A DNA stretch of 64,000 nucleotides. Origin: Candidatus Aminicenantota bacterium. GTDB lineage: Bacteria > Acidobacteriota > Aminicenantia > Aminicenantales > UBA4085. This document shows positions 46,983-60,734 of the stretch, in pieces; the stretch's first letter is position 1, and the number at the start of each line of letters is the position of its first letter. The position numbers were made by a program, and so were the translations under genes. The notes beneath the pieces are model-generated. The model was not told the DNA's origin. It searched no databases and worked only from the letters and a program-made list of their open reading frames with translations. The DNA is taken from NCBI GenBank assembly GCA_003141555.1, contig PLMN01000029.1, forward strand, positions 151,922-215,921. Reading direction: 5' to 3'.

Positions 46983-47810
46983 TCAGATCTCGACCTTGAA
47001 GACGCCCTTGAGGGCGAAGCCGAAAACGATGGACAGGGCGAAATAGGCGATGAGCCAATGGAGCCGCAGGCCGAGGAGGGGCAAGCGGCGCTCGGGATGA
47101 TCCACCTCCACCGATTCGACGGCCAGGGCGCGCGGCAGCGGCTTTTCCCCCGGATTGAAAACCTGATCAAGAAACGACGGGCCCGGCCGGACGTTGGAAA
47201 TCGGGGCCAGGAGGCTCCCGCCGACCCGCACGCTCTTGGTGAACGAGTCCGAGCCCGCTTTCAGGGTGAGATCGTAGACGCCCGGCGCCGCGGCCCGAAG
47301 CCGCCAGTCGATCTCCCGCTCCTCTTCGATTCTCAAGGGAAGTGTCTCGACGATGATTCCCGCCGGCGCATCGACCGAGATGTCCGAGGCGAGGGGAGAC
47401 CGCCCTGCGGCCAACTTGACCTTGAGGATCGCCGTCTCGCCCGGGGCGAGGGGCCGCGATCCGAACCACAAGTTGAGCTGGATGAGGATGAGCATCACCG
47501 GGACGATCATGACCAGCATCGGCCGGAGGGCGTGGAGGATGTAGCGGCCGTTGGCCGCCAGGATCCGGCCCTGAGAGCGCATCTGCTGGGCCATGCTGTC
47601 CTTGTAGAGCCGCAACTCGAGAAGATGCGCTTTGATGGCTTCCTTGGCCCGATGGATCCCCTCCTGGTTCGACGTCCAACGGAAAACGGCCAACATGAGG
47701 AGCCCGGTCAGGACCGAGATGACGATCATCGCCAGCCAGGGGTTCATGGCCCGGAAGGGCAGGACCGCGAGGCCGAAGAGGCTGCCGATGACCGCGTTGA
47801 AGGTTGCCAT
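46983..47810 (-). CDS. Membrane protein resembling DUF106/YidC-like insertases
   Basis: A 275-residue protein. The N-terminal half has two helices (about 24-44 and 92-113) flanking a charged coiled segment (NQEGIHRAKEAIKAHLLELR), a layout like DUF106/EMC3 members of the Oxa1/YidC superfamily. A periplasmic beta domain of about 120 residues follows, then a last helix near 252-268. The family match is by layout only. It is the last gene of the phosphodiesterase cassette, 8 bp after the ribbon-helix-helix gene. Confidence 0.5.
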   Translation of the reverse strand: MATFNAVIGSLFGLAVLPFRAMNPWLAMIVISVLTGLLMLAVFRWTSNQEGIHRAKEAIKAHLLELRLYKDSMAQQMRSQGRILAANGRYILHALRPMLVMIVPVMLILIQLNLWFGSRPLAPGETAILKVKLAAGRSPLASDISVDAPAGIIVETLPLRIEEEREIDWRLRAAAPGVYDLTLKAGSDSFTKSVRVGGSLLAPISNVRPGPSFLDQVFNPGEKPLPRALAVESVEVDHPERRLPLLGLRLHWLIAYFALSIVFGFALKGVFKVEI

Positions 47811-47818
47811 GGCGTTGG

Positions 47819-48010
47819 TCAGCCGATGTAGCCCAGCCCCTTGAGCTTCTTCTTGATCTCCTCTTCGGAGTCGGCTTCCTCGATCTTGGCGATCTCCTTC
47901 TCGAGGACATGGGTGACGAACTCCTCGACCGAGGAATAGCCGGACATCTCTGCGAATCTGCGGACCTTGTCCAGCAACGCCTTTTCGATCTTGATCTTTT
48001 CCTGGCTCAT
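47819..48010 (-). CDS. Small ribbon-helix-helix-like protein
   Basis: A 63-residue protein: KIEKALLDKVRRFAEMSGYSS then VEEFVTHVLEKEIAKIEE. The strand-helix-helix order is that of RHH (CopG/MetJ-like) DNA-binding proteins or toxin-antitoxin partners. A basic start followed by an acidic helix is typical. The ATG overlaps the stop of the phosphoesterase (ATGA). No toxin-like gene is adjacent, so an antitoxin role is not supported; autoregulation of the cassette is one possibility. Confidence 0.6.
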   Translation of the reverse strand: MSQEKIKIEKALLDKVRRFAEMSGYSSVEEFVTHVLEKEIAKIEEADSEEEIKKKLKGLGYIG

Positions 48011-50004
48011 CCCGGTTCTCCCTTCTTGAAGAGCGAGCTCCCGATCATCTCCTTCGGCTTTTCGATGTCGAAGACGTCCATGATCGTCGCCGTCACGTCG
48101 TAGAGCGCGGGCCGCTCGGCCGCGACCGGCCGATTGGCGAGGACGATGCCCGGCATGATCTCGGCCGCCCCCATGTGGTCCCCGCTCCATTTCGCCTTGT
48201 TGTCCTCGAGGATGTCCTTGGGCACGCGGCCGAGCGGCGACTTGAATGAAATCCGGTAGCCCCGGTTGAAGCCCAGGATGATGTCGGGGGCGGAGGAGAC
48301 GTAGGCCCCGGTGTAGACGTCCTTGGCCACATAGGCCCGGGCCAGGACCTTCTCGCCGGTCTTGGGATCCCGGAACTCCTCCAGCTTGCGGGCGATTTCC
48401 CGGACGAGGTTGTCCTTGTCGGGGCCGGTCGTGACGATGCCTTCGGATTCCCGGCCCTTCTCGTTGATGTAGAGGCCGTTCAATCCGACGCCGTAGGCCC
48501 GGGTCTTCATCCAGTTCGTCCCGGCGAAGGCCCAGTCGAGGTCCTCCTCCTTGAACTCGTTCTGGAGCTTGAGATAGCCGTTCGCCCGGAGCCAGGTGTT
48601 GAGGTTGAAGCTCCGGTAATAAGGGTTGAAGCCGTGATCGGACATGACCAGGACGATCGTGTCCTTGTCGATCCGGCCCAGGGCGCGGTCCAGGATCTCG
48701 TCCGCCTGCCGGTACGTGGACTCGATCGTCCCGCCGAAGGCCTTGGCCAGGGCCGGGTCGTAGGCCGGGTGCTTCTCGTCGAAGAGCCGCCAGAACATGT
48801 GCTGGCGCTGGTCCGTGCTCGAAATGTAGTAGAACAGCAGCCCCGCCTCGAACCGGCCCAGCTCGTAGTCCAGCATGGTCCGGCTCTCTTCGAGGACGAA
48901 GCCGTCCTGTTGGAGGAACTCCTCCTCGTTGAGGATGTCGTTTTCGAGGGCGCTCGTGTCGGCCGGGAGTCCCTTGGTGAAGAATGGGCCGAATTTCTTT
49001 TCGAGGTCCTCGCCGTACGAGGTCGGCGTTGAGACCGGCAGCGCGGGCCGGGCGGGGTCGACGTTGATCGGGGAGACATACAGTTTGACCTCGGGATGGA
49101 TCTCCTTGAGGTAGAACATGCAGATGCCGCCGACGCTCTGGGTGGGGATGAGGGGGAAGCTTACCCTCTTCCAGCCGCTCCATTCCTTCTCCCGGAGGAG
49201 GAAATCCTGGCCCTGGATGGAAATCCGGGCAACCGCATTGGACGGGTCGAGGTAAATCTTGAAGTCGATCTCGGCGGCCGGCCTGTCCGGCTTGAAGGAG
49301 TTGATCGGGCCGGGGAGCTTGGCGTCGACCCGGTTGCCGATGACGTAGACCTGGTGGACGGTTGCCCCGCCGATGTCCTCGTTCACGAGCTTCGATTCGG
49401 TGGTGTAGTAGTTCAGAGTGCCATAGGTTCCCACTATGTCCGGCGTGCCCATGCCCGAGAAGGTCCTCTGGCGGCTGTCGACAGGCGGGTAGTTGGCCGG
49501 GATCTTGAAGACCGTGGCCGGCACGTCGTGCTCCTCGAGGACCTGCCAGAACGCCTTGCCTTGGCGCAGGTTCCGGACCGAGCCGCTCTTGATGGGGAAG
49601 ACGATGTTGCCCAGGCGGATCGTCTTGGTCGAGCCCTCGGTCGCGGAGGCCGAGAACGTCGGGAAATAGGTCTTCGGATCGCGGTGAATGAAATCGAAGA
49701 TCCCATGGCCGCCCGGGTTCGTGCCGGCGATGAAGTTCGACCAGGCGACCGGGCTCTGGGGCGGGATGCTCGTCCCCAAGGGGGAGAAGCCGCCCTGGGC
49801 GGCCAGGCGCTTGAACGCCGGAAGCTTGCCCTCGCTCATCCATCGGGCGGTCATCTTCGGGTCCATGCCGTCGAACCCGAGGATGAGGACCTTCCGGGGC
49901 GTTGCCTTCCGGCCGGCGGTCCGCATCACCGCGTCGGCGCGCGGGCCCAGGGCGAGGAGCGTCGCGGCGCCGGCCCCGGCCTTGATGAAATCGCGGCGGT
50001 TCAT
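48007..50004 (-). CDS. Tat-exported alkaline phosphatase superfamily (type I phosphodiesterase) protein
   Basis: A 665-residue protein with a twin-arginine signal (MNRRDFIKAGAGAATLLALG). The AP-superfamily nucleophile is the Ser or Thr in the SPVAWSNFIAGTNPGGHGI motif (about 85-105); metal ligands include GFDGMDP at the start and SDHGFNPY near 450. The middle (about 110-420) is a beta-rich insert shared with the two paralogues upstream. Overlaps the 50001 gene and the RHH gene by 4 nt each. The substrate is unknown. Confidence 0.82.
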   Translation of the reverse strand: MNRRDFIKAGAGAATLLALGPRADAVMRTAGRKATPRKVLILGFDGMDPKMTARWMSEGKLPAFKRLAAQGGFSPLGTSIPPQSPVAWSNFIAGTNPGGHGIFDFIHRDPKTYFPTFSASATEGSTKTIRLGNIVFPIKSGSVRNLRQGKAFWQVLEEHDVPATVFKIPANYPPVDSRQRTFSGMGTPDIVGTYGTLNYYTTESKLVNEDIGGATVHQVYVIGNRVDAKLPGPINSFKPDRPAAEIDFKIYLDPSNAVARISIQGQDFLLREKEWSGWKRVSFPLIPTQSVGGICMFYLKEIHPEVKLYVSPINVDPARPALPVSTPTSYGEDLEKKFGPFFTKGLPADTSALENDILNEEEFLQQDGFVLEESRTMLDYELGRFEAGLLFYYISSTDQRQHMFWRLFDEKHPAYDPALAKAFGGTIESTYRQADEILDRALGRIDKDTIVLVMSDHGFNPYYRSFNLNTWLRANGYLKLQNEFKEEDLDWAFAGTNWMKTRAYGVGLNGLYINEKGRESEGIVTTGPDKDNLVREIARKLEEFRDPKTGEKVLARAYVAKDVYTGAYVSSAPDIILGFNRGYRISFKSPLGRVPKDILEDNKAKWSGDHMGAAEIMPGIVLANRPVAAERPALYDVTATIMDVFDIEKPKEMIGSSLFKKGEPG

Positions 50005-52181
50005 GTCGTTCGTCCTTTGGGGGAAGAAGCCCCCGCACCGGCCAGGAGCGACGCGCCGTCCATATGGGCCGGCGGCCGCAAGCCGAAGAGCTCGAGGACG
50101 GTCGGAGCGATGTCCATGATCGAGGGCGAGGGCGCGGCCAGCTTGAGGCTGGAGAAGAGGACGCCGGGGACGCAGGCCGGGTCGATGCAATGGTCCCCGC
50201 TCCAGGCCTTGACGTTGTCCTCGAACACGGTCCCGGTCACGATCCCCGTGACGCCGTCCCAGGAGGCCCTGTAGCCGGAATTGTAGCCCACGATCAGGTC
50301 GGGGGCGTTGTCCTTGTAGGGGCCGGCGTAGATCTCGTCCTTGTCGTAGATCTTGTTGATCGCCGTGGCGTCCGAAGCGACGTCCTTCAGTCCGCCAAGC
50401 TTTTCCGCGAGCTCGGCCCGGAGGCTCCGGGCTTCGGCCCCGGCGGTCACGGTTCCCTCGGCTTCGCGGCCTTTCTGGTTGATGTAGATCCCGCCCAAGC
50501 CGAGGGCGTAGGCCCGGGTCCGCGCCCAGTCGACGCCTTTGAACCATTCTCCGCTCCGGTCGGCGCTATCCTTCAAAGCCAGGTATCCGTTCGCGAACAG
50601 CCAGGAGTTGATGTTCACCCCGCGGCGGAAGGGCTTGAAGCCGTGGTCGGACATGATGAACAGGGCCCCGTTCGGCGACATCTTGGCCCTGACCCGGCCG
50701 ATCATCTCGTCCATCTTGAGGAAGAGATCCTCGATGACCTCGGGGCCCATCGCGGCCGGGCCTTTTTTCAGGGCGGGATGATCCTTGTCGAGATAGCGCC
50801 AGAACATGTGCGAAATGCTGTCGGTCGTTTCGAAGACGCAGGTGACCATGCCCCGGCGCGTCTTGTCCAGGGCGTTAAAGAGCATCTTTTCCCATTCCTT
50901 GTGGTTGGAATACGTCAGCTCGAGGAAGGCGCGCTCGTCGAGGGCGCCTTCGTTGAGCGCCCAGGTGTCGTTCGCCTCCCCCAGGGTGATGAAGCCGCCC
51001 AGGAGCTTTGAGAGGTAGACCGAATAGATGAACGGGTGGGAGATCGGCAGGGCGGGCTTCTCCGGGTCGATGTTGAGGGGGGTGACGTACATCTCGAAAT
51101 GGGGCGAGATCTGGGAGACGTAGAATTTGCAGATGGACCGGATCTTGATTCCGAGGCCGGGCCGGAACGTGATCCGCGTCCAGGGGGAGAACGTATTCCG
51201 GGCCAGGATCATTTTCTGTCCCGAGACTTCAAGATGGACCGCGTCCCGGGCGCGGTCGATCCTTACCCGGAACGGCAGCTTGATCTCGACGGGCTTTTTG
51301 AGCATCGTGTTTTCGGGCCCGGAGAGGAAGCCGTCGACCCGGTCGCCCTTGACCTCGACCGGGAACACGACCCCGCCCTCATGCTTCTGGACCTTGGCCG
51401 GGTCGGACGTGTAGAACGAGAACGTCCCCTGGCTGCCCTTGAGATCCGGCGCGCACATGCCGGATAGCAGGTGCCCACGGAATTTCTCGGGCGGGAACGT
51501 GATCGGCACCCGGAGGACGGTGCTGAAAATCCCGTGCTCGCCCAGGATCTTCCAGAAGGGGACACTCTTGCGGAGCCCCTGGATCTCGGGCTTGGACAAC
51601 GGGACCTTGTATTTCCCGAGCGAAAGCGTCCTCCGGGGTTTCCCGATGCGGGCCGAGGAGAGATCAGGAAGATAAGTCCTGGGATCGCGGCTGAGGAAGT
51701 CGAAAATGTTGTGCTTGGAAGGATTGGAGCCGGTCATGAACGAGGACCAGGCGACGGGCGAGATGGCGGGCGTCGTCGTCCGAAGCCGGCCGTAGAAGCC
51801 TTCCGCCTTGAGTTTTGATAATTGGGGGAGCTTTCCCTCGGCCATGAACTTCTCGGCCAGCTCCGGGGCCATGCCGTCCAGACCGACGATGACGACCTGG
51901 TCGACGCGGCTTTTCTGGAAGGCTTTTTTCCCCCGGATCATCCGGAAAATGAAGCGGAACGGCCACGACAGGAAGGAAAAGATAGCGAGGATAAAGGTCA
52001 GAAACAGGACGAGGAACGAGGAGAGGAAGGCGAACCCGGCGCCCGGACCGATATACGCGGCCAGGGGAAGTCCCGCGCCGAGGACGAAGAGGATGACGGC
52101 CAGCAGCCGGACGAGCGCCGTTCTTCGGCCGCCCTCCCGGCTATCGCTCTTCGGGTCGGACTCCCGAGCCGCGTTCGTCAT
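50001..52181 (-). CDS. Membrane-anchored alkaline phosphatase superfamily protein
   Basis: A 726-residue protein. The N-terminal 90 residues carry two membrane helices (LLAVILFVLGAGLPLAAYIG and FLVLFLTFILAIFSFL) after a charged start; a short basic loop joins the soluble domain. VIVGLDGMAPELAEKF, ISPVAWSSFMTGSNPSKH and SDHGFKPF are the AP-superfamily metal and nucleophile motifs. The body closely follows the Tat-exported paralogue downstream. Overlaps its neighbours by 4 nt and 1 nt. Confidence 0.82.
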   Translation of the reverse strand: MTNAARESDPKSDSREGGRRTALVRLLAVILFVLGAGLPLAAYIGPGAGFAFLSSFLVLFLTFILAIFSFLSWPFRFIFRMIRGKKAFQKSRVDQVVIVGLDGMAPELAEKFMAEGKLPQLSKLKAEGFYGRLRTTTPAISPVAWSSFMTGSNPSKHNIFDFLSRDPRTYLPDLSSARIGKPRRTLSLGKYKVPLSKPEIQGLRKSVPFWKILGEHGIFSTVLRVPITFPPEKFRGHLLSGMCAPDLKGSQGTFSFYTSDPAKVQKHEGGVVFPVEVKGDRVDGFLSGPENTMLKKPVEIKLPFRVRIDRARDAVHLEVSGQKMILARNTFSPWTRITFRPGLGIKIRSICKFYVSQISPHFEMYVTPLNIDPEKPALPISHPFIYSVYLSKLLGGFITLGEANDTWALNEGALDERAFLELTYSNHKEWEKMLFNALDKTRRGMVTCVFETTDSISHMFWRYLDKDHPALKKGPAAMGPEVIEDLFLKMDEMIGRVRAKMSPNGALFIMSDHGFKPFRRGVNINSWLFANGYLALKDSADRSGEWFKGVDWARTRAYALGLGGIYINQKGREAEGTVTAGAEARSLRAELAEKLGGLKDVASDATAINKIYDKDEIYAGPYKDNAPDLIVGYNSGYRASWDGVTGIVTGTVFEDNVKAWSGDHCIDPACVPGVLFSSLKLAAPSPSIMDIAPTVLELFGLRPPAHMDGASLLAGAGASSPKGRTT

Positions 52182-53476
52182 CAGAAGCGGTCCATGATGA
52201 TCTTCGAAATGTCCGAGATGGCCAGCGCCTCGCCGAAATCGTGCTTGGCCAGGAAGAAGGCGTCGTCCCAGGTATGCATGCCCTGCAGCCCGGGCGTCCG
52301 GCCGAAGGTTTCCTTTCTTTTGACCGAGCCTTTCACGTCGAAGCCGGGCTCGGAGAGCACGATGAGGTCCGGACCCTTGGAAACGAGTGGGCCGGAATAG
52401 ACTTCGCGGGCGGGGAAGACGTTCCGAATGACCTTCCGGCCCTCGAATTCGAGAGCGGACAGGCGGCGAATGATCGCTTCCTTGATCGCCTTGGCGTCGG
52501 CGGGCTTGACCGAGCCTTGGGGGAACTTGTCCTTGAGGTTGATATAAATGCGACCCGGATCGAGGGCGAAGGCCACGGACTTCGGCGAGATGTCCTCAAG
52601 GCCCTTGGGGAGGACGGTGGTGAACTTCAGGAATTTTTCCTTTTCGAGCCAGGCGTTGAGGTAGACCTCCTGGCGGATACCGGTGAAGCCGTGGTCCGAG
52701 AGAAAGAAGATGTTTTCCTCGTCGGCCGCGGTCTTGCGGAACGAGGTGTAAATCTTGTTGATCAACCGGTCGATCTGCCGGTAATATTCGAGGAAGTTCT
52801 GATGGTGGGGGTGGGAAGGGTTCTCGTAGGCGTTCCAGAGGAAATGGTGGAGCCGGTCCGTCCCGGTCAGGACGAGCTCGAAATAGTCCCACTCCTCCTC
52901 CCAGTAGTGATTGAGCGCCTTCTGGCGGCCCATGAGCGTCTTGATGAGCTCATCCCAAAGGATGTTGACGTTTTCCCGCGCTTTCAGCGTGTCGATGTCG
53001 ATCTGGTAGCCCATCTGCTCCAGGACGGCCTTTTGATTAAGGGGATAGACGGCTTTGCCGAGCTCGATGGCCACGAACCCGGAGATCAGGATGCCGTTCA
53101 GCGGCCGGGCGGGGTAGGTTGAAGGCTGGTTGATGATGATCGATTTCACGCCCCTGTCAGCCAGCGTGTCCCAAAAGGGCGGAGCCTTGATATCCTGGTA
53201 GTTGGGATATCGGACTTCGTAGCTCCCGGGCTTGAGGTCGGTGAAGCCGAAGATCCCATGCGTCCCGGAGTTTGTCCCGGTCATGAAGTCCGTCCAGCTG
53301 ACCGCGGAGATCTCGGGGAGGCTGGCTTTCATCTTGTGGAGGTGCCCGGAGTCGATGATCCGGCCGAGGGAGGACATGATGCCCTTCCTGGCGAGGTCGA
53401 GCAGAAGGCCGTAGGGGACGCCATCGAGGCCGATGACGCAGACTCGGTTTTTGGGCTTTTTCTTCTGGGTGGTCAT
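52181..53476 (-). CDS. Cytoplasmic alkaline phosphatase superfamily protein
   Basis: A 431-residue AP-superfamily protein lacking any signal or anchor (start MTTQKKKPKNRVCVIGLDG). Motifs are GLDGVPYGL, ISAVSWTDFMTGTNSGTHGIF and SDHGFTGI, with a more compact central insert than its two paralogues. It is the first gene of the cassette and has a near-consensus promoter 12 nt upstream of its ATG. The last base of its stop is the first base of the next ATG (TGATG). Confidence 0.82.
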   Translation of the reverse strand: MTTQKKKPKNRVCVIGLDGVPYGLLLDLARKGIMSSLGRIIDSGHLHKMKASLPEISAVSWTDFMTGTNSGTHGIFGFTDLKPGSYEVRYPNYQDIKAPPFWDTLADRGVKSIIINQPSTYPARPLNGILISGFVAIELGKAVYPLNQKAVLEQMGYQIDIDTLKARENVNILWDELIKTLMGRQKALNHYWEEEWDYFELVLTGTDRLHHFLWNAYENPSHPHHQNFLEYYRQIDRLINKIYTSFRKTAADEENIFFLSDHGFTGIRQEVYLNAWLEKEKFLKFTTVLPKGLEDISPKSVAFALDPGRIYINLKDKFPQGSVKPADAKAIKEAIIRRLSALEFEGRKVIRNVFPAREVYSGPLVSKGPDLIVLSEPGFDVKGSVKRKETFGRTPGLQGMHTWDDAFFLAKHDFGEALAISDISKIIMDRF

Positions 53477-53488
53477 GGAAAGGCGCTT

Positions 53489-53516
53489 ATTATAGCACCC
53501 CCCGCCAGGAAGTCAA
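53489..53516 (-). promoter_or_regulatory. Promoter of the phosphodiesterase cassette
   Basis: TTGACT (53516-53511), 16 bp, TATAAT (53494-53489). The ATG at 53476 is 12 nt past the -10, so the leader is about 5-6 nt, without a Shine-Dalgarno. Confidence 0.75.
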
Positions 53517-55250: not shown

Positions 55251-55931
55251 TCAGGCGAGAACCTTGAGGATGGTCTCGAGGACGGTGTCCTCCGGGGCCG
55301 CGCCCTCGATCGTATATATTCCATTGACGACGGTCTTGGGTACCCCCCGGACGTTGAACCGGTCGGAAAGCTCGGGGAATTCCTGCGACTCGATCATGTC
55401 GGCGGTGATGAACGGTGACTCCAGAGCGAATTGATGGGCCAGGCGGACCGCCTGCGGGCAATAGGCGCAGGTCGGGGTGATGAAGACCTGGATGTGGATC
55501 TTGCGGTCGACGGCTTTCAGGGCTTCCTTGGCCTTCGGGCTGAGCGACGACGTCCCGCGGGAGACGTCGATGAGGGCTTCGACGAGGCTGGAATATTCGT
55601 AGCCCGAGGGAATGCCGAAGAAACGGATCCCGTAGTCCAGCGCCCCGGCGAGGACCGTCGCTGGGATTTTGTCCACCCCGAACGCGGCCGCCTTTTCGGC
55701 TTCGGCCTTGAAGTCAAGGATCTTGAGATCGATCTTGTCCGAGAGGGCGGCAACCTCCTCCAGGAGCTGTCGCGTCTCCCGGCAGAAGAAACAGTCCTGG
55801 CTCCGGAGGGCTCCGGGCAGGACGAGCCGGCTCTGTTTGCCCGTGAAATGGCGCATCGTGACCGGGCCCGCGAGCTCCGCGTCGAATCTTTTTCGGGTGG
55901 CTTCGCGAACGTCCTTGCCGAGCATGTCCAT
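55251..55931 (-). CDS. Two-domain glutaredoxin-like protein disulfide oxidoreductase
   Basis: A 226-residue protein with two thioredoxin folds in tandem. The first active site is CFFC (C47, C50) and the second CAYC (C155, C158), each with a downstream cis-Pro (KIPATVL, GVPKTVV). This is the layout of archaeal and thermophile-type PDO. No signal peptide, so cytoplasmic. GGAGATG precedes ATG 55931. Divergent from the aminotransferase with a shared -35. Confidence 0.85.
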   Translation of the reverse strand: MDMLGKDVREATRKRFDAELAGPVTMRHFTGKQSRLVLPGALRSQDCFFCRETRQLLEEVAALSDKIDLKILDFKAEAEKAAAFGVDKIPATVLAGALDYGIRFFGIPSGYEYSSLVEALIDVSRGTSSLSPKAKEALKAVDRKIHIQVFITPTCAYCPQAVRLAHQFALESPFITADMIESQEFPELSDRFNVRGVPKTVVNGIYTIEGAAPEDTVLETILKVLA

Positions 55932-57495: not shown

Positions 57496-58986
57496 TCAAG
57501 GGGCGGTAGGCCGGACGGCCGAAGGCTTACCCTCCGGTTTTGCCCGGCCCGCGGCTCCGGGCTGGGCTTGGCTCAGCAGATAATCGTAGACGTGGATGTC
57601 GTACTGGTCCGGATCGAGGGACATGAGGATCGACCGCTTGAAGCCGTTCGCCGTCCCGCTCGGCTCGACCAGGTCGACGATGCCGCCGTCGAGCTTGTTG
57701 CCTCGGGTGTCGGAAATCAGCTTCACCTTCGGCCGCTTCACGAACGCGGCGTTGGCGTTGGGCTGGATGACGACCCCGATCTCGCAGTTGTCGAGGACCA
57801 CGAGCGATCCGATGGGATAGACGCCGATCATGTTGATGAACGCTTTGAGGAGGATCGGATCGAACTCCTTGCCGCTCAGATCGACCATGAGCCGGAGCGC
57901 CTCTTCGGGAGTGAACGTCTTCGGCCGGTAGACCCGCTTGGTCGTGATGGCATCGTAGTAATCGACGATCTTCACGATCCGGCTGAACAGCGACGTTTCC
58001 CGCCGCCAGTGGTACTTGGGATAGCCCCCGAGCGAAGGCGTCAGATGGTGCTCGAAGGCCACGACGAACGCCGAGACCGGCATGTCTTGGGCGGTCCGCG
58101 TCTGGAGCAGGCGGGCCGCGCCGCGCTGCGGGTGCAATTCCATGAGCGCCCGCTCGTCGGACGTGAGCTTGCCCGGCTTGTCCACGATCTCGTTCGGGAT
58201 CTCGAACTTGCCAACGTCGTGGAGGCAGGCGCTGATCCCGAGCTCGATCAGCTCCCGGCGGGACAGACCCAGCCGGCGGCCGAGCGATAGGGCCAGGACG
58301 CAGACGTTGACCGAATGGTTGAGCGTGTAGTCCTCGAAGTTCTTGATCGTCGTCATCCCGAAGAGGATCGATTCGTCGAGAGCCAGAAGGTTGACGATCG
58401 ACTGGATCCAGCGCTTGGTGATATGCAGGTTGAGGACCCCGTGCCGGGCGTCGAAGATCTCCTTGAGATGGTAGATGCCCAGGAAATACATGGGGACCGC
58501 GTTCTGGCCCACCAGCTTGACCTCTTCGGCCGCCGGGATCTTCTCCAGCCGGATGTGGGCGAAGGCTGCCGCCTGGAGATCCTCGGCCAGCCGCTCGAAG
58601 GAGTTGCTCTGGGGGAGGAGCTTCTTGGACAAGAAGATGATGAAGCTCTGCATCTCGACTTCGGTCAGGCCCGGCAGGAAGCTCGCCGCGCCGATCCGCC
58701 AGTTCTTGAACTCTTCGAGAATGAACAGGTAGACGTGGAAGTTCGAGAAATTGAATTTCAGGCGGATCTGGTTCAGGAAAACGGAGTCCTGGACGATCCG
58801 GATCTGGACCTCCTCGCCGGTCTGAAGGATCTTCTGGAACGTGTCGAAAAGAAGCCGGATGCGCTCCTGGAACTGGACGTTGTTCTGCTCATAGACGCGG
58901 GCTTGCCGGTAGGCGACATGGAAATTGACGAAAACTCCCATGGCCTCGCGAGCGCTGACCGCAGATTTCTGGTCGTCTTGGCTCAT
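57496..58986 (-). CDS. HD-GYP domain protein (c-di-GMP phosphodiesterase-like)
   Basis: A 496-residue protein. The N-terminal region (25-120) is a domain also present at the start of the upstream HEAT-repeat gene. Next comes the HD-GYP domain: H224, HD at 256-257 (CLHDVGKFEIP), HH at 313-314 and GGYP at 320-323, so the metal and GYP motifs are intact. It probably cleaves c-di-GMP. The ATG overlaps the HEAT stop (ATGA), so the two are translated together. Confidence 0.85.
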   Translation of the reverse strand: MSQDDQKSAVSAREAMGVFVNFHVAYRQARVYEQNNVQFQERIRLLFDTFQKILQTGEEVQIRIVQDSVFLNQIRLKFNFSNFHVYLFILEEFKNWRIGAASFLPGLTEVEMQSFIIFLSKKLLPQSNSFERLAEDLQAAAFAHIRLEKIPAAEEVKLVGQNAVPMYFLGIYHLKEIFDARHGVLNLHITKRWIQSIVNLLALDESILFGMTTIKNFEDYTLNHSVNVCVLALSLGRRLGLSRRELIELGISACLHDVGKFEIPNEIVDKPGKLTSDERALMELHPQRGAARLLQTRTAQDMPVSAFVVAFEHHLTPSLGGYPKYHWRRETSLFSRIVKIVDYYDAITTKRVYRPKTFTPEEALRLMVDLSGKEFDPILLKAFINMIGVYPIGSLVVLDNCEIGVVIQPNANAAFVKRPKVKLISDTRGNKLDGGIVDLVEPSGTANGFKRSILMSLDPDQYDIHVYDYLLSQAQPGAAGRAKPEGKPSAVRPTAP

Positions 58987-60734
58987 GGTCGATTTTCATC
59001 GCCCTCGCCGGGCGCCGACTTGAGGCGCAGGAGCGCCGCGCGGCTGGCCGCCTTGACGCGGCGTGAGCCGCGCCGGGCCGCGCTCTGGAGAGGTTCGATC
59101 GCTTCCGGCCCGCCGTGCGCCTCGAGCGCGGCCACGGCGGCGAGCCGAGTCTCGCGGATCCGACGGCGCTCCACGAGCGCCGGCTTGAGGGCCATCGTCT
59201 TCAGGAACGCGGCCGCTTGGGCGGAGCCGCTTCGGCCGATGGCCATTAGGAACGCCGCCTTTTCGGCCGAGGATTTTTTCAGGAAATTCTTCCGCGACGC
59301 GCTTTGGATCAGCTCGGCCACCGTCGTCGGATCGCCGCCCAGCCTGACCGCCTCGGCGGCCTTGGTCCGGATGTCCTCGTCGTCGTCCCGGAGCAGGCTG
59401 GTCAGGATCTTCTGGGCGGGCAGGTCGGGAAACGCGGCCAGGGCCCGGATCGCCCGTAGCCGGCTCATCTTGTTCTTGAAGCCGGTGATTTCGCCGAGGA
59501 GGGGAATGGCCCGCGGGTCGCGGATCTTGGCGAAGACGCCGATGACGATCCGGGTGAATTCGGGCTGTGAGTCCTGGGCCAGCCTGGACAGCGCCTGGGG
59601 ATCCCCCCGCCCCATGTCCTCGAGGAAGCGCAGGGCCCGGCTGCGGACATCCTCGTTGGGGCCGTGGCTCACGAGCTCCGCACCGAGTTTGAGGGCGGGC
59701 AATCCCACCCGGGACAGATAAAGAAAGAAGCTCTCGGCATCGATGATCTTCTTCTCACAGGCGGCCTTGAGGAGCGCCTTTTCGGGAAACGACTCCTCCA
59801 GGTCCGTCATGAAGTCGGCGACCGCATTTGCCTTGGCGGGGGCCTTCCCCTCGACCTCTCGGCTGATCTGGCCGATCTGGCCGAGCATCTGGGCCGCGTG
59901 GACGAAGTCATGCGCCTGGAGCTGGGCCGCGTGGAATTTTTTCAAGAAGGCGAGGATCCCCGAGAAGACTTCGAAGCGCTCCTCGACGTTGAGAAGCTCG
60001 AGCGTCAAGTCCAGGAAATCCTTGTCCGGCGCGATGCGGCGCTGGCCCTCGACGGTGGATTCGAGCGTCCGCATCTCGGCTTCGTCAAGCGGTGCGAACC
60101 GGGCGGCGTAGTCGATCTCCTCCTGGGCGACGGGTTGCGCCGCGGACCTCATCCGCGCGAACATTTCGGCGACGTCGGAGGGCTTCAAATCGATCCGCCC
60201 CGCGTAGAGCTCTTCGGGCTTCACCTGGAACTGGGACGGAATCCGCTGCTGGACCGTCACCTTGGATTCCAGGAAGTCATCCGGCGCGAAGTACCGGACG
60301 TGGGCCAAGTCTCGCTGCCAGAGGGCGTCCACGATATCGCCCACATCGATCGGGAGGAGGGAGATCTCCCGGACTGTCGCGAGAAACGCCTCGATCTCAT
60401 CCGTATCGAGCCCCCGGAGGAACGCCAATTTCTTCATTCCGTCTTTGAAAAACAGGTAGGGGAGGCTCCGCAAGACGTTCTCGTCCTGGTAGGCGATTTC
60501 CCCTTCGAAGAGAAAGGCGTTTTGCAGGATTTCGATTTCAAGCTCGTCGGCGTCTCGGAAGTATGCGCTGAGCTTGTCCATGAACAGCTCTCGGAAATGG
60601 GCGGCGGAGGAGTGGCCGCCGGGATAGAGCTTCATCTGGGAGATGGTTTGGGTGAGGACAACGAGGATCTCTTTGACGGCCGCCAGGGTTTTGGCGTCGG
60701 ACGCCCCCTCCGTCCCCGCGGCCCAGCCGAGCAC
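58983..60734 (-). CDS. HEAT-repeat protein sharing an N-terminal domain with the HD-GYP gene
   Basis: A 583-residue protein. Residues 30-122 match the HD-GYP protein's N-terminal domain (SQMKLYPGGHSSAAHF, ELEIEILQNAFLFEGE, then LAFLRGLDTDEIEAFL). From about 320 onwards there are HEAT/armadillo-like repeats, as in PBS lyase-like scaffold proteins. The GTG at 60734 has AAGGAG overlapping it, so an unusual upstream start (ATT or ATC) remains possible. Function unknown; probably a partner of the HD-GYP protein. Confidence 0.7.
   Translation of the reverse strand: MLGWAAGTEGASDAKTLAAVKEILVVLTQTISQMKLYPGGHSSAAHFRELFMDKLSAYFRDADELEIEILQNAFLFEGEIAYQDENVLRSLPYLFFKDGMKKLAFLRGLDTDEIEAFLATVREISLLPIDVGDIVDALWQRDLAHVRYFAPDDFLESKVTVQQRIPSQFQVKPEELYAGRIDLKPSDVAEMFARMRSAAQPVAQEEIDYAARFAPLDEAEMRTLESTVEGQRRIAPDKDFLDLTLELLNVEERFEVFSGILAFLKKFHAAQLQAHDFVHAAQMLGQIGQISREVEGKAPAKANAVADFMTDLEESFPEKALLKAACEKKIIDAESFFLYLSRVGLPALKLGAELVSHGPNEDVRSRALRFLEDMGRGDPQALSRLAQDSQPEFTRIVIGVFAKIRDPRAIPLLGEITGFKNKMSRLRAIRALAAFPDLPAQKILTSLLRDDDEDIRTKAAEAVRLGGDPTTVAELIQSASRKNFLKKSSAEKAAFLMAIGRSGSAQAAAFLKTMALKPALVERRRIRETRLAAVAALEAHGGPEAIEPLQSAARRGSRRVKAASRAALLRLKSAPGEGDENRP

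Follow-up and report, generated by a model that had tools for sequence, protein, structure and literature searches.

A conserved five-gene cassette of putative NPP-type phosphodiesterases, a small LGY-tailed protein and a membrane protein from Aminicenantia as a candidate inner-membrane module of PAPS-dependent sulfation

The window, a stretch of 64,000 nucleotides from a Candidatus Aminicenantota bacterium, carries five tightly joined genes on its minus strand. Gene 1 (AP1; 53476-52181, 431 aa) encodes a soluble enzyme of PF01663 with no signal or transmembrane (TM) helix seen; gene 2 (AP2; 52181-50001, 726 aa) encodes a PF01663 enzyme with a signal-like helix and a TM helix; and gene 3 (AP3; 50004-48007, 665 aa) encodes a third PF01663 enzyme with a Tat-type export signal. 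They are followed by gene 4 (48010-47819), whose 63-aa product is ribbon-helix-helix (RHH)-like and ends in a C-terminal LGY tail (residues ~48-63, 47869-47822), and by gene 5 (47810-46983), which encodes a membrane protein of 275 aa of the EMC3/DUF106 (archaeal MJ0480-like) type. Genes 1 and 2 overlap by 1 nt, genes 2 and 3 as well as genes 3 and 4 by 4 nt, and a gap of 8 nt separates genes 4 and 5. Upstream of gene 1, a promoter on the same strand (53516-53489; TTGACT, 16 nt, TATAAT, with a TG extension) agrees with the consensus at 11 of 12 positions and leaves a leader of a few bases before the ATG. All five relatives that were aligned with the window (L020-L023 and L028) share the promoter's TTG and TATAAT. 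The coordinates, the overlaps and this conserved promoter confirm the initial annotation, which had described five joined genes under a single strong promoter. No RNA element was found at Rfam gathering scores between 44000 and 57000.

Genes 1, 2 and 3 match PF01663 with E values of 2.5e-35, 1.3e-30 and 8.4e-32, and their scores of 107.6-123.1 bits, against a cut-off of 23, place all three in the superfamily. The metal motifs that they had been said to share are indeed present in each of them as seven residues (D45, S84, D398, H402, D456, H457 and H610), which are invariant in 22/22 aligned rows; their roles as metal ligands and nucleophile are ones that we assume from NPP structures. The serine taken to be the nucleophile lies in the context SPVAW/SAVSW. 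Over 632 residues, genes 2 and 3 share 37% identity, and both carry a large β insert; gene 1 is more distant. The fold of AP3 is closest to those of NPPs (2gsn, Z 26.3, rmsd 3.9 over 348 residues), and a phmmer search of the PDB sequences with AP3 (P0003) alone gave no match up to E 1. Judged by sequence, AP1-AP3 belong to the NPP-type PF01663 phosphodiesterase superfamily as putative two-metal phosphodiesterases. A sulfatase identity was also considered for genes 1-3 and rejected, as PF00884 gave no match up to E 1 and the C/S-x-P-x-R motif is absent.

The N-termini of the three enzymes point to different locations. In gene 2, a signal-like helix, an AYIGPGAG loop, a TM helix and a basic linker precede the catalytic domain, and the linker carries a net positive charge in 79/79 evaluable sequences (14 of 93 were not evaluable). 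Since a basic linker that follows the helices would hold the catalytic domain on the cytosolic side, the catalytic domain of AP2 is predicted to face the cytosol. The start of gene 3 is Tat-like, with a PF10518 match (E 1.4e-4, 22.0 bits) under the cut-off of 22.7 and a TIGR01409 match (17.6 bits) over the cut-off of 16.7; the export signal covers residues 1 to ~27, and its pattern recurs in 96/97 evaluable sequences (14 of 111 were not evaluable). All scans for signals, TM helices and linkers used simple patterns, not a trained predictor. The earlier proposal of three paralogues, one for each cell compartment, thus holds for the soluble AP1 and the Tat-signal AP3 but has to be redrawn for AP2, so that the predicted compartments become the soluble cytosol (AP1), the cytosolic face of the membrane (AP2) and the periplasm (AP3). 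Likewise, genes 2 and 3 form a conserved pair, whereas gene 1 is limited to certain lineages.

Gene 5 had been called YidC/DUF106-like. The DUF106 part of this name stands, since a profile of gene 5 (A1) matches the archaeal DUF106 protein MJ0480 with an E value of 6.7e-8 over TM1, the hairpin and TM2, with a weakly aligned TM3. The YidC part does not, as there is no PF02096 match up to E 1; the ordinary YidC of the genome (PF02096) is encoded elsewhere, at C25:16789-17343. The match to PF01956 (EMC3/TMCO1) is below the cut-off (E 0.003, 17.8 bits against 27.1). In the AF2 model (pLDDT 90), helices span residues 24-46, 49-68, 73-116 and 252-267, from which we infer a membrane topology of three TM helices with a cytosolic helical hairpin after TM1. 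An Ig-like domain (residues 118-200; 47211-47459, minus strand) lies between TM2 and TM3 and is predicted to be periplasmic. The matches listed by the fold searches are Ig-like domains, which makes these searches uninformative on the Oxa1 fold. The product of gene 5 therefore appears, from its sequence matches, to be a relative of EMC3/TMCO1/DUF106 (Oxa1 superfamily). A plasmid search with gene 5 (P0005) gave no match.

The five-gene order, when sought in other genomes, recurs across Acidobacteriota as a conserved operon. It is kept in 52 of 77 named loci, mostly of Ca. Aminicenantes, and 23 of the remaining 25 loci are cut by a contig end. Two loci, L088 (titled Krumholzibacteriia) and L091 (titled Deltaproteobacteria), keep genes 2-5 and have no gene 1; the lasting core is genes 2-5, and gene 1 is not universal. 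The gene-5 family is present in 101/396 Acidobacteriota genomes and in 45/47 of those in the window's class. Homologues scattered singly through unrelated contexts would have spoken against a functional unit; instead, the recurrence of the order in relatives indicates that the cassette is more than a chance assembly. An apparent order of gene 5 before gene 4 at two loci in one listing is an artefact of stop-to-stop ORF ends, and L069/L134 and L076/L162 are apparently the same contigs sampled twice. All five genes are also found at L037, in a record titled Clostridiales. Neighbours conserved in Aminicenantes, named here from their sequences, are aminotransferase-like (c4), thioredoxin-like (c9), OmpH-like (c10) and acyl-CoA synthetase-like (c16), and these four gave no functional lead.

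A functional lead came from the surroundings of the cassette outside the window's class. Forty stretches, some only 3-7 kb long, were chosen for family breadth from the 101 gene-5 genomes (39 genomes, one used twice), and sulfate genes were labelled by phmmer matches of at least 60 bits to nine reference proteins, with the APS kinase of L133 and L142 labelled through a match to a Sat-CysC fusion. Outside the class, 25 of the 32 chosen stretches contain a sulfate gene: a sulfotransferase in 19, an activation gene in 13 and both in 7. This linkage extends over 18 of 23 family labels, which were assigned by hand. In L131 the order is CysQ-RHH-Sat-APS kinase-AP1-AP2-AP3-RHH-gene 5, where neighbouring genes from Sat on are separated by -4 to 29 nt, and CysD-CysN precede AP1 in L132, L134, L141 and L149. 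One representative of each kind matched in Pfam, as ATP sulfurylase with APS kinase, PAPS_reduct, GTP_EFTU, Inositol_P and Sulfotransfer_3. One sulfotransferase family has 69 strong matches, of which 41 are no more than 15 kb from a gene-5 homologue, a count that is partly built in because the profile was seeded with cassette neighbours (five cassette-adjacent genes and one from L176); the proximity expected by chance is about 0.7% per genome. Gene 5 occurs in 52/66 genomes with this family, the other 14 having no gene 5, against 49/330 genomes without it (Fisher 4e-24, uncorrected for relatedness). An APS kinase is found in 93/101 gene-5 genomes against 150/295 others, although this enzyme has a part in ordinary sulfur assimilation too.

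From this recurrent adjacency to genes of sulfate activation and transfer, we propose that the cassette is probably the membrane part of a sulfation pathway, namely an inner-membrane module of PAPS-dependent sulfation, with a sulfated glycan or glycolipid of the cell surface as the most likely product. We put the probability of this reading at roughly 0.55. That genes 1-3 are all PF01663 members would also suit a plain cassette for scavenging phosphodiesters or phosphate, lying near sulfate genes by accident in some lineages, and the window's own class, with no adjoining sulfate genes, would suit it too. Such an accident is nevertheless very unlikely given that the linkage recurs under 18 of 23 family labels and extends to one sulfotransferase family at so low a chance rate, and given a membrane-face enzyme, AP2, that is predicted to look into the cytosol.

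Within the window's class, none of the eight chosen stretches (some of them short) has a sulfate gene beside the cassette, and among the 77 named loci such genes occur only in L069 and L091, of which L069 is apparently the same contig as L134 and lies outside the class. The window's own genome does contain a PAPS operon (CysD-CysN-RHH/LGY-AP-APS kinase-epimerase-UDP-sugar dehydrogenase), elsewhere on the contig and away from the cassette. This genome has no match to the linked sulfotransferase family; its single Sulfotransfer_3 match belongs to another type, of 408 aa, and lies about 17 kb away. The sulfate link is therefore well supported outside the window's class, and within the class we infer it. 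The initial annotation had guessed at a phosphodiester or sulfate-like substrate, a guess that gains from the linkage in relatives but not from the window locus itself.

The AP of the PAPS operon in the same genome is related to AP1 (P0001), at 26% identity over 428 aa. This relationship, the position of AP genes between Sat/CysN and APS kinase or directly after them, and the NPPs as closest solved folds, several with nucleotides bound, would all accord with nucleotide housekeeping, in which AP1-AP3 would hydrolyse what sulfate activation leaves over or makes in surplus (PAP, APS, PAPS and pyrophosphate), the membrane and periplasmic copies would take leaked or exported nucleotides, and the clean-up would pull sulfation forward. 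We regard this explanation as doubtful, the pull included, since a CysQ-like gene is also present in 4 of the 32 outside-class stretches (L131, L133, L142 and L152) and since nucleotide clean-up needs neither two large, conserved β-insert enzymes on both faces of the membrane nor a membrane protein. Two observations bear on the chemistry. The NPP-type sites of AP1-AP3 indicate phosphorus rather than sulfur chemistry, which counts against the sulfation module. In G112 and G213, where CysD-CysN lie directly beside the cassette, no APS kinase match was found, and PAPS does not fit there.

Gene 4 matches RHH proteins weakly (NikR-like, E 0.044; pArc, E 0.16) and has no RHH Pfam match, and its C-terminal GLGY is invariant in 24/24 rows. 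Away from the cassette, its relatives adjoin genes for sulfate activation and for phosphodiesterases, for example in the window's own genome and in haloarchaea. An RHH/LGY match lies within 1 kb at 86/106 gene-5 places. For 86 of the 150 listed strong RHH/LGY matches, gene 5 is no more than 1 kb away, and for 38 a listed APS kinase is no more than 5 kb away; the other 26 include six with an AP or sulfotransferase gene in their flanks, three within 0.3 kb of a sulfotransferase, and one (G073) beside an AP gene in L158. The matches in L232 and L233 have no AP or sulfate gene in their flanks. In 19 stretches around APS kinase, RHH/LGY is present, as a separate or fused domain, in 11 (L170, L172-L177, L180-L182 and L188), being fused to APS kinase itself in L177, and absent in 8 (L171, L178, L179 and L183-L187), so that it is not universal beside APS kinase. 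A plasmid search with AP2 (P0002) gave 49 records, mostly haloarchaeal, of which 10 were inspected; of 11 haloarchaeal AP-family genes, 6 have an LGY-type tail in cis, and three of those without it have a small LGY protein encoded directly upstream. The tail occurs in 14/357 AP, sulfatase and sulfate genes against 3/1016 others, and in none of the 265 proteins labelled AP1-AP3. Two of the three tailed others are gene-4 relatives called too long.

The RHH-like character of gene 4 and its NikR-like and pArc matches would also agree with a repressor of sulfate and AP genes. Gene 5, as a member of an insertase superfamily in a genome that also has an ordinary YidC, could then be a dedicated insertase of AP2, and the cassette would be a regulon whose enzymes are only loosely related, not a pathway step. 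We think this unlikely, because the invariant GLGY, the fusion to APS kinase, the haloarchaeal tails in cis or in a small protein upstream, and the position of gene 4 inside the operon all argue against it.

If the cassette is a sulfation module as proposed, a cytosolic sulfotransferase would modify a membrane-bound intermediate, whose phosphodiester-linked groups would be cleaved or transferred on both sides of the membrane, by AP2 at the cytosolic face and by periplasmic AP3. Gene 5 could serve as a membrane scaffold or translocation partner, and gene 4 as a docking subunit whose LGY tail would tie AP2 to the sulfate-activating enzymes. AP1 would be a soluble variant that acts near PAPS production. 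A bolder version, quite unlikely as a whole, is that the serine of AP2 passes a sulfuryl group, or a head group bearing sulfo, from cytosolic PAPS or APS to a lipid carrier, the EMC3-type protein moves or presents this lipid, and exported AP3 hands the group over to glycans of the surface, with RHH/LGY as a general docking subunit for enzymes of sulfate handling and of the AP family in Bacteria and Archaea, its tail acting in cis or in trans; such a relay would allow extracellular sulfation without PAPS outside the cell.

The closest known relatives of the AP enzymes are the NPPs (Xac NPP, ENPP4-7) and phosphonoacetate hydrolase, which have a similar fold (Z ~26 and ~24, respectively). The seven metal and nucleophile positions of the APs, with roles assigned as in NPPs, agree with the NPPs in order and identity, except that serine replaces the threonine nucleophile of NPPs. 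Compared with the listed NPP-type structures, the APs are only 14-19% identical, genes 2 and 3 have the large β insert, and gene 2 has a membrane tether. The formylglycine sulfatases (PF00884) belong to the same alkaline phosphatase superfamily, and PF00884 proteins occur among the neighbours in relatives; genes 1-3 differ from them in lacking both the family match and C/S-x-P-x-R, which we take to be the modification motif of these sulfatases. EMC3/DUF106 members elsewhere are insertases, and archaeal DUF106 (MJ0480, 5c8j) and EMC3/TMCO1 have a three-TM core in common with gene 5, which differs in being bacterial and in its Ig-like domain between TM2 and TM3. PMC8887752 treats DUF106 as an archaeal family.

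Within the parts of the open-licence PMC literature that were covered, we found no published account of the cassette or of an LGY-tailed protein. The capsule clusters of Vibrio KMM 8419 and Cobetia KMM 1449, as described in PMC11641403 and PMC11766843, combine PAPS-synthesis, sulfotransferase and sugar-nucleotide genes, and the terms 'alkaline phosphatase', 'nucleotide pyrophosphatase' and 'phosphodiesterase' are absent from the main texts of both papers. If our reading is true, the cassette would represent a membrane stage of bacterial sulfation that is absent from those texts, and a pathway would be assigned to a group of uncharacterised PF01663 enzymes. The small LGY-tailed protein would then offer an inexpensive way to trace sulfation-linked enzymes in the genomes of Bacteria and Archaea, and the EMC3/DUF106 family would gain a bacterial branch marked by an additional domain.

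The cassette consists of five genes on the minus strand. Its first three members, AP1 (53476-52181), AP2 (52181-50001) and AP3 (50004-48007), all match PF01663; they are followed by gene 4 (48010-47819), encoding a ribbon-helix-helix (RHH)-like protein of 63 residues with no Pfam match above the cut-off, and gene 5 (47810-46983), whose EMC3-like match lies under that cut-off. The observation behind the initial annotation, namely overlaps of 1, 4 and 4 nt followed by an 8-nt gap and one promoter for all five genes, is upheld at these coordinates. The single promoter (53516-53489) is a near-perfect sigma-70 type, with TTG and TATAAT invariant in an alignment of the window with five chosen relatives. 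Only 12 nt separate the end of its -10 box from the start codon (53477-53489), so the operon is probably transcribed into an mRNA with almost no leader.

Gene 3 gave 77 named relatives with up to 83% identity, whose titles are mostly Candidatus Aminicenantes or Acidobacteri(ot)a. All five genes occur in the same order in 52 of these loci, and a contig end interrupts 23 of the remaining 25; in L088 (Krumholzibacteriia) and L091 (Deltaproteobacteria), genes 2-5 are present without gene 1. The gene-5 family was found in 101 of 396 Acidobacteriota genomes, from which 40 stretches were chosen by hand, 32 outside the window's class (Aminicenantia) and 8 inside. In stretches of sufficient length the closely spaced series 2-3-4-5 is found again, the exceptions being L135 (order 3-4-5-2), L152 (gene 3 divergent), L158 (gene 4 adjoining another AP gene on the other strand), L146 (gene 3 not found), L145 (gene 2 in pieces) and L156 (a second, partial copy). 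Only a subset of the 40 includes gene 1. The core is therefore four genes, 2 to 5. Upstream in the window, the protein encoded at 55251-55931 reads as thioredoxin-like and has the two CxxC motifs CFFC and CAYC; similar proteins (cluster c9) often lie directly upstream of gene 1 in Aminicenantes; two adjacent large proteins (57496-60734; clusters c6 and c13) are kept near the cassette in many Aminicenantes loci.

Across 22 aligned sequences covering all three types of enzyme, D45, S84, D398, H402, D456, H457 and H610 (gene 3 numbering) are invariant, and we take these seven positions to be the two-metal ligands and nucleophile of NPP structures, the nucleophile here being Ser. AP2 and AP3, with 37% identity across 632 residues, are by sequence a true pair; AP1 is shorter and more distant from both. 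The AlphaFold model of AP3 (pLDDT 87.6) has NPPs as its nearest folds: Xac NPP (2gsn) aligns with Z 26.3 and rmsd 3.9 over 348 residues, ENPP4-7 with Z about 26, and phosphonoacetate hydrolase with Z about 24. A formylglycine sulfatase identity for genes 1-3 was ruled out by family search and active-site alignment.

Locations were predicted by simple pattern scans. AP1 lacks a hydrophobic segment in 57 of 62 sequences. Of 111 AP3 sequences, 14 could not be evaluated; 96 of the other 97 show an export-signal pattern of the Tat-like, lipobox or hydrophobic kind. In AP2, a YIGPGAG-type loop is flanked by two helices in 89/93, and the linker ahead of the catalytic domain is net positive in all 79 evaluable cases (14 of 93 not evaluable), so that, by the positive-inside rule, the catalytic domain is predicted to be cytosolic. 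Accordingly, the three enzymes are predicted to cover the cytosol, the cytosolic membrane face and the periplasm.

A gene 5 profile built from 26 homologues reaches E 6.7e-8 against the archaeal protein MJ0480 (entry 5c8j). DUF106 is presented in PMC8887752 as an archaeal family with three TM helices. In the gene 5 model (pLDDT 90), TM1 is followed by a helical hairpin and TM2, and residues 118-200 form an Ig-like domain ahead of TM3; this domain has a VIA Z of at most 6.7, which is middling. An ordinary YidC is also encoded in the window's genome. Topology and fold together suggest a division of labour among AP2, AP3 and gene 5.

In loci from outside the window's class, sulfation genes often surround the core. 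Pfam searches on one representative of each neighbour gave ATP sulfurylase (Sat) fused to APS kinase, a sulfotransferase, and three proteins that we read as CysD (PAPS_reduct domain), CysN (EF-Tu-like GTPase) and CysQ-like (inositol-phosphatase family). The order is CysQ-RHH-Sat-APS kinase-AP1-AP2-AP3-RHH-gene5 in L131 and sulfotransferase (opposite strand)-CysQ-APS kinase-CysD-CysN-AP2-AP3-RHH-gene5 in L142, and CysD-CysN precedes AP1 in L132, L134, L141 and L149. At least one such gene is found in 25 of the 32 stretches outside the class (sulfotransferase in 19, activation gene in 13, both in 7); by family label, a hand count outside the class gives linkage in 18/23. The sulfotransferase profile, four of whose six seeds are cassette neighbours from these same genomes, yields strong hits (E below 1e-43) to 69 genes in 66 of the 396 genomes, with 41 of the 69 within 15 kb of gene 5 against a chance expectation under one. 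With kinship ignored, as in the linkage tests above, gene 5 is present in 52 of the 66 genomes with this family versus 49 of 330 without, and APS kinase in 93 of 101 gene-5 genomes versus 150 of 295 others.

In relatives of gene 4, G24, Y25 and the tail G58-L59-G60-Y61 (LGY) are invariant in 24/24 aligned rows; a tandem pair of gene-4-like genes lies at L140:5184-5534, the first (49 aa) without the tail. A second RHH/LGY type accompanies ATP sulfurylase and APS kinase (L170, L172-L176, L181, L182; CysD-CysN in L170), sometimes with a PF01663 enzyme or sulfotransferase in between. The APS kinase at L177:320-1108 carries an RHH/LGY domain as a C-terminal fusion. RHH/LGY is not universal beside APS kinase: of 19 stretches chosen around such a gene, 8 lack it. 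Of 150 strong RHH/LGY matches listed from the 396 genomes, 86 have gene 5 at a distance of up to 1 kb and 38 have a listed APS kinase at up to 5 kb. An AP, Sat, APS-kinase or sulfotransferase gene flanks the match in 28 of 30 loci examined. Near these loci, some proteins of the CysD, APS-kinase and sulfatase kinds terminate in a similar tail. Ten stretches of haloarchaeal plasmids hold 11 annotated AP-family genes: six carry the tail in cis, three, all from Halorussus, lack it but are preceded at 2-3 nt by a gene for a small LGY protein, and two have neither. For two of these small Halorussus proteins, the A5 profile gives 28 and 19 bits and the A2 profile 14 and 8. We read the tail as one that may be supplied in cis or in trans; so short a motif can converge. 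In L194, L195 and L199 (Halorussus plasmids), the LGY-tailed protein (72-73 aa) lies inside glycosyltransferase clusters.

The proposal of a pathway for a phosphodiester or sulfate-like substrate across the inner membrane is partly supported, and sharpened, by the sulfation link in relatives outside the class. The strongest doubt is that the linkage is missing in the window's own class. None of the 8 stretches inside the class has sulfate genes beside the cassette, and of the 77 named loci only two do, L091 and L069, the latter on the contig of L134, which is from outside the class. The linked sulfotransferase family has no match in the window's genome by profile search; the single Sulfotransfer_3 protein of that genome is of another type. 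This 408-aa protein (L192:1354-2580; about 222-223 kb on the window's contig, G000:C30) is encoded about 17 kb from the cassette, adjoining a CxxxCxxC protein that is radical SAM-like by reading alone. The sulfation case in this genome rests on a separate operon away from the cassette and outside the window, at the start of the same contig (L170:78-7555), which encodes CysD and CysN, then an RHH/LGY protein and a PF01663 enzyme whose nucleophile position is, by eye, Thr, followed by APS kinase, an epimerase and a UDP-sugar dehydrogenase, and which suggests a sulfated, uronate-containing glycan. APS kinase has no match genome-wide in G112 (L149) and G213 (L141), both with CysD-CysN directly before the cassette; these genomes may therefore make APS but not PAPS, an APS-only route.

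The sulfation link is the firmest functional part of the proposal, and we class the cassette as a putative cluster of sulfation genes that includes an undescribed membrane module. Published clusters for sulfated capsules also combine PAPS synthesis with sulfotransferases; in the main text of two papers on them (PMC11641403, PMC11766843), neither alkaline phosphatase nor nucleotide pyrophosphatase nor phosphodiesterase is mentioned.
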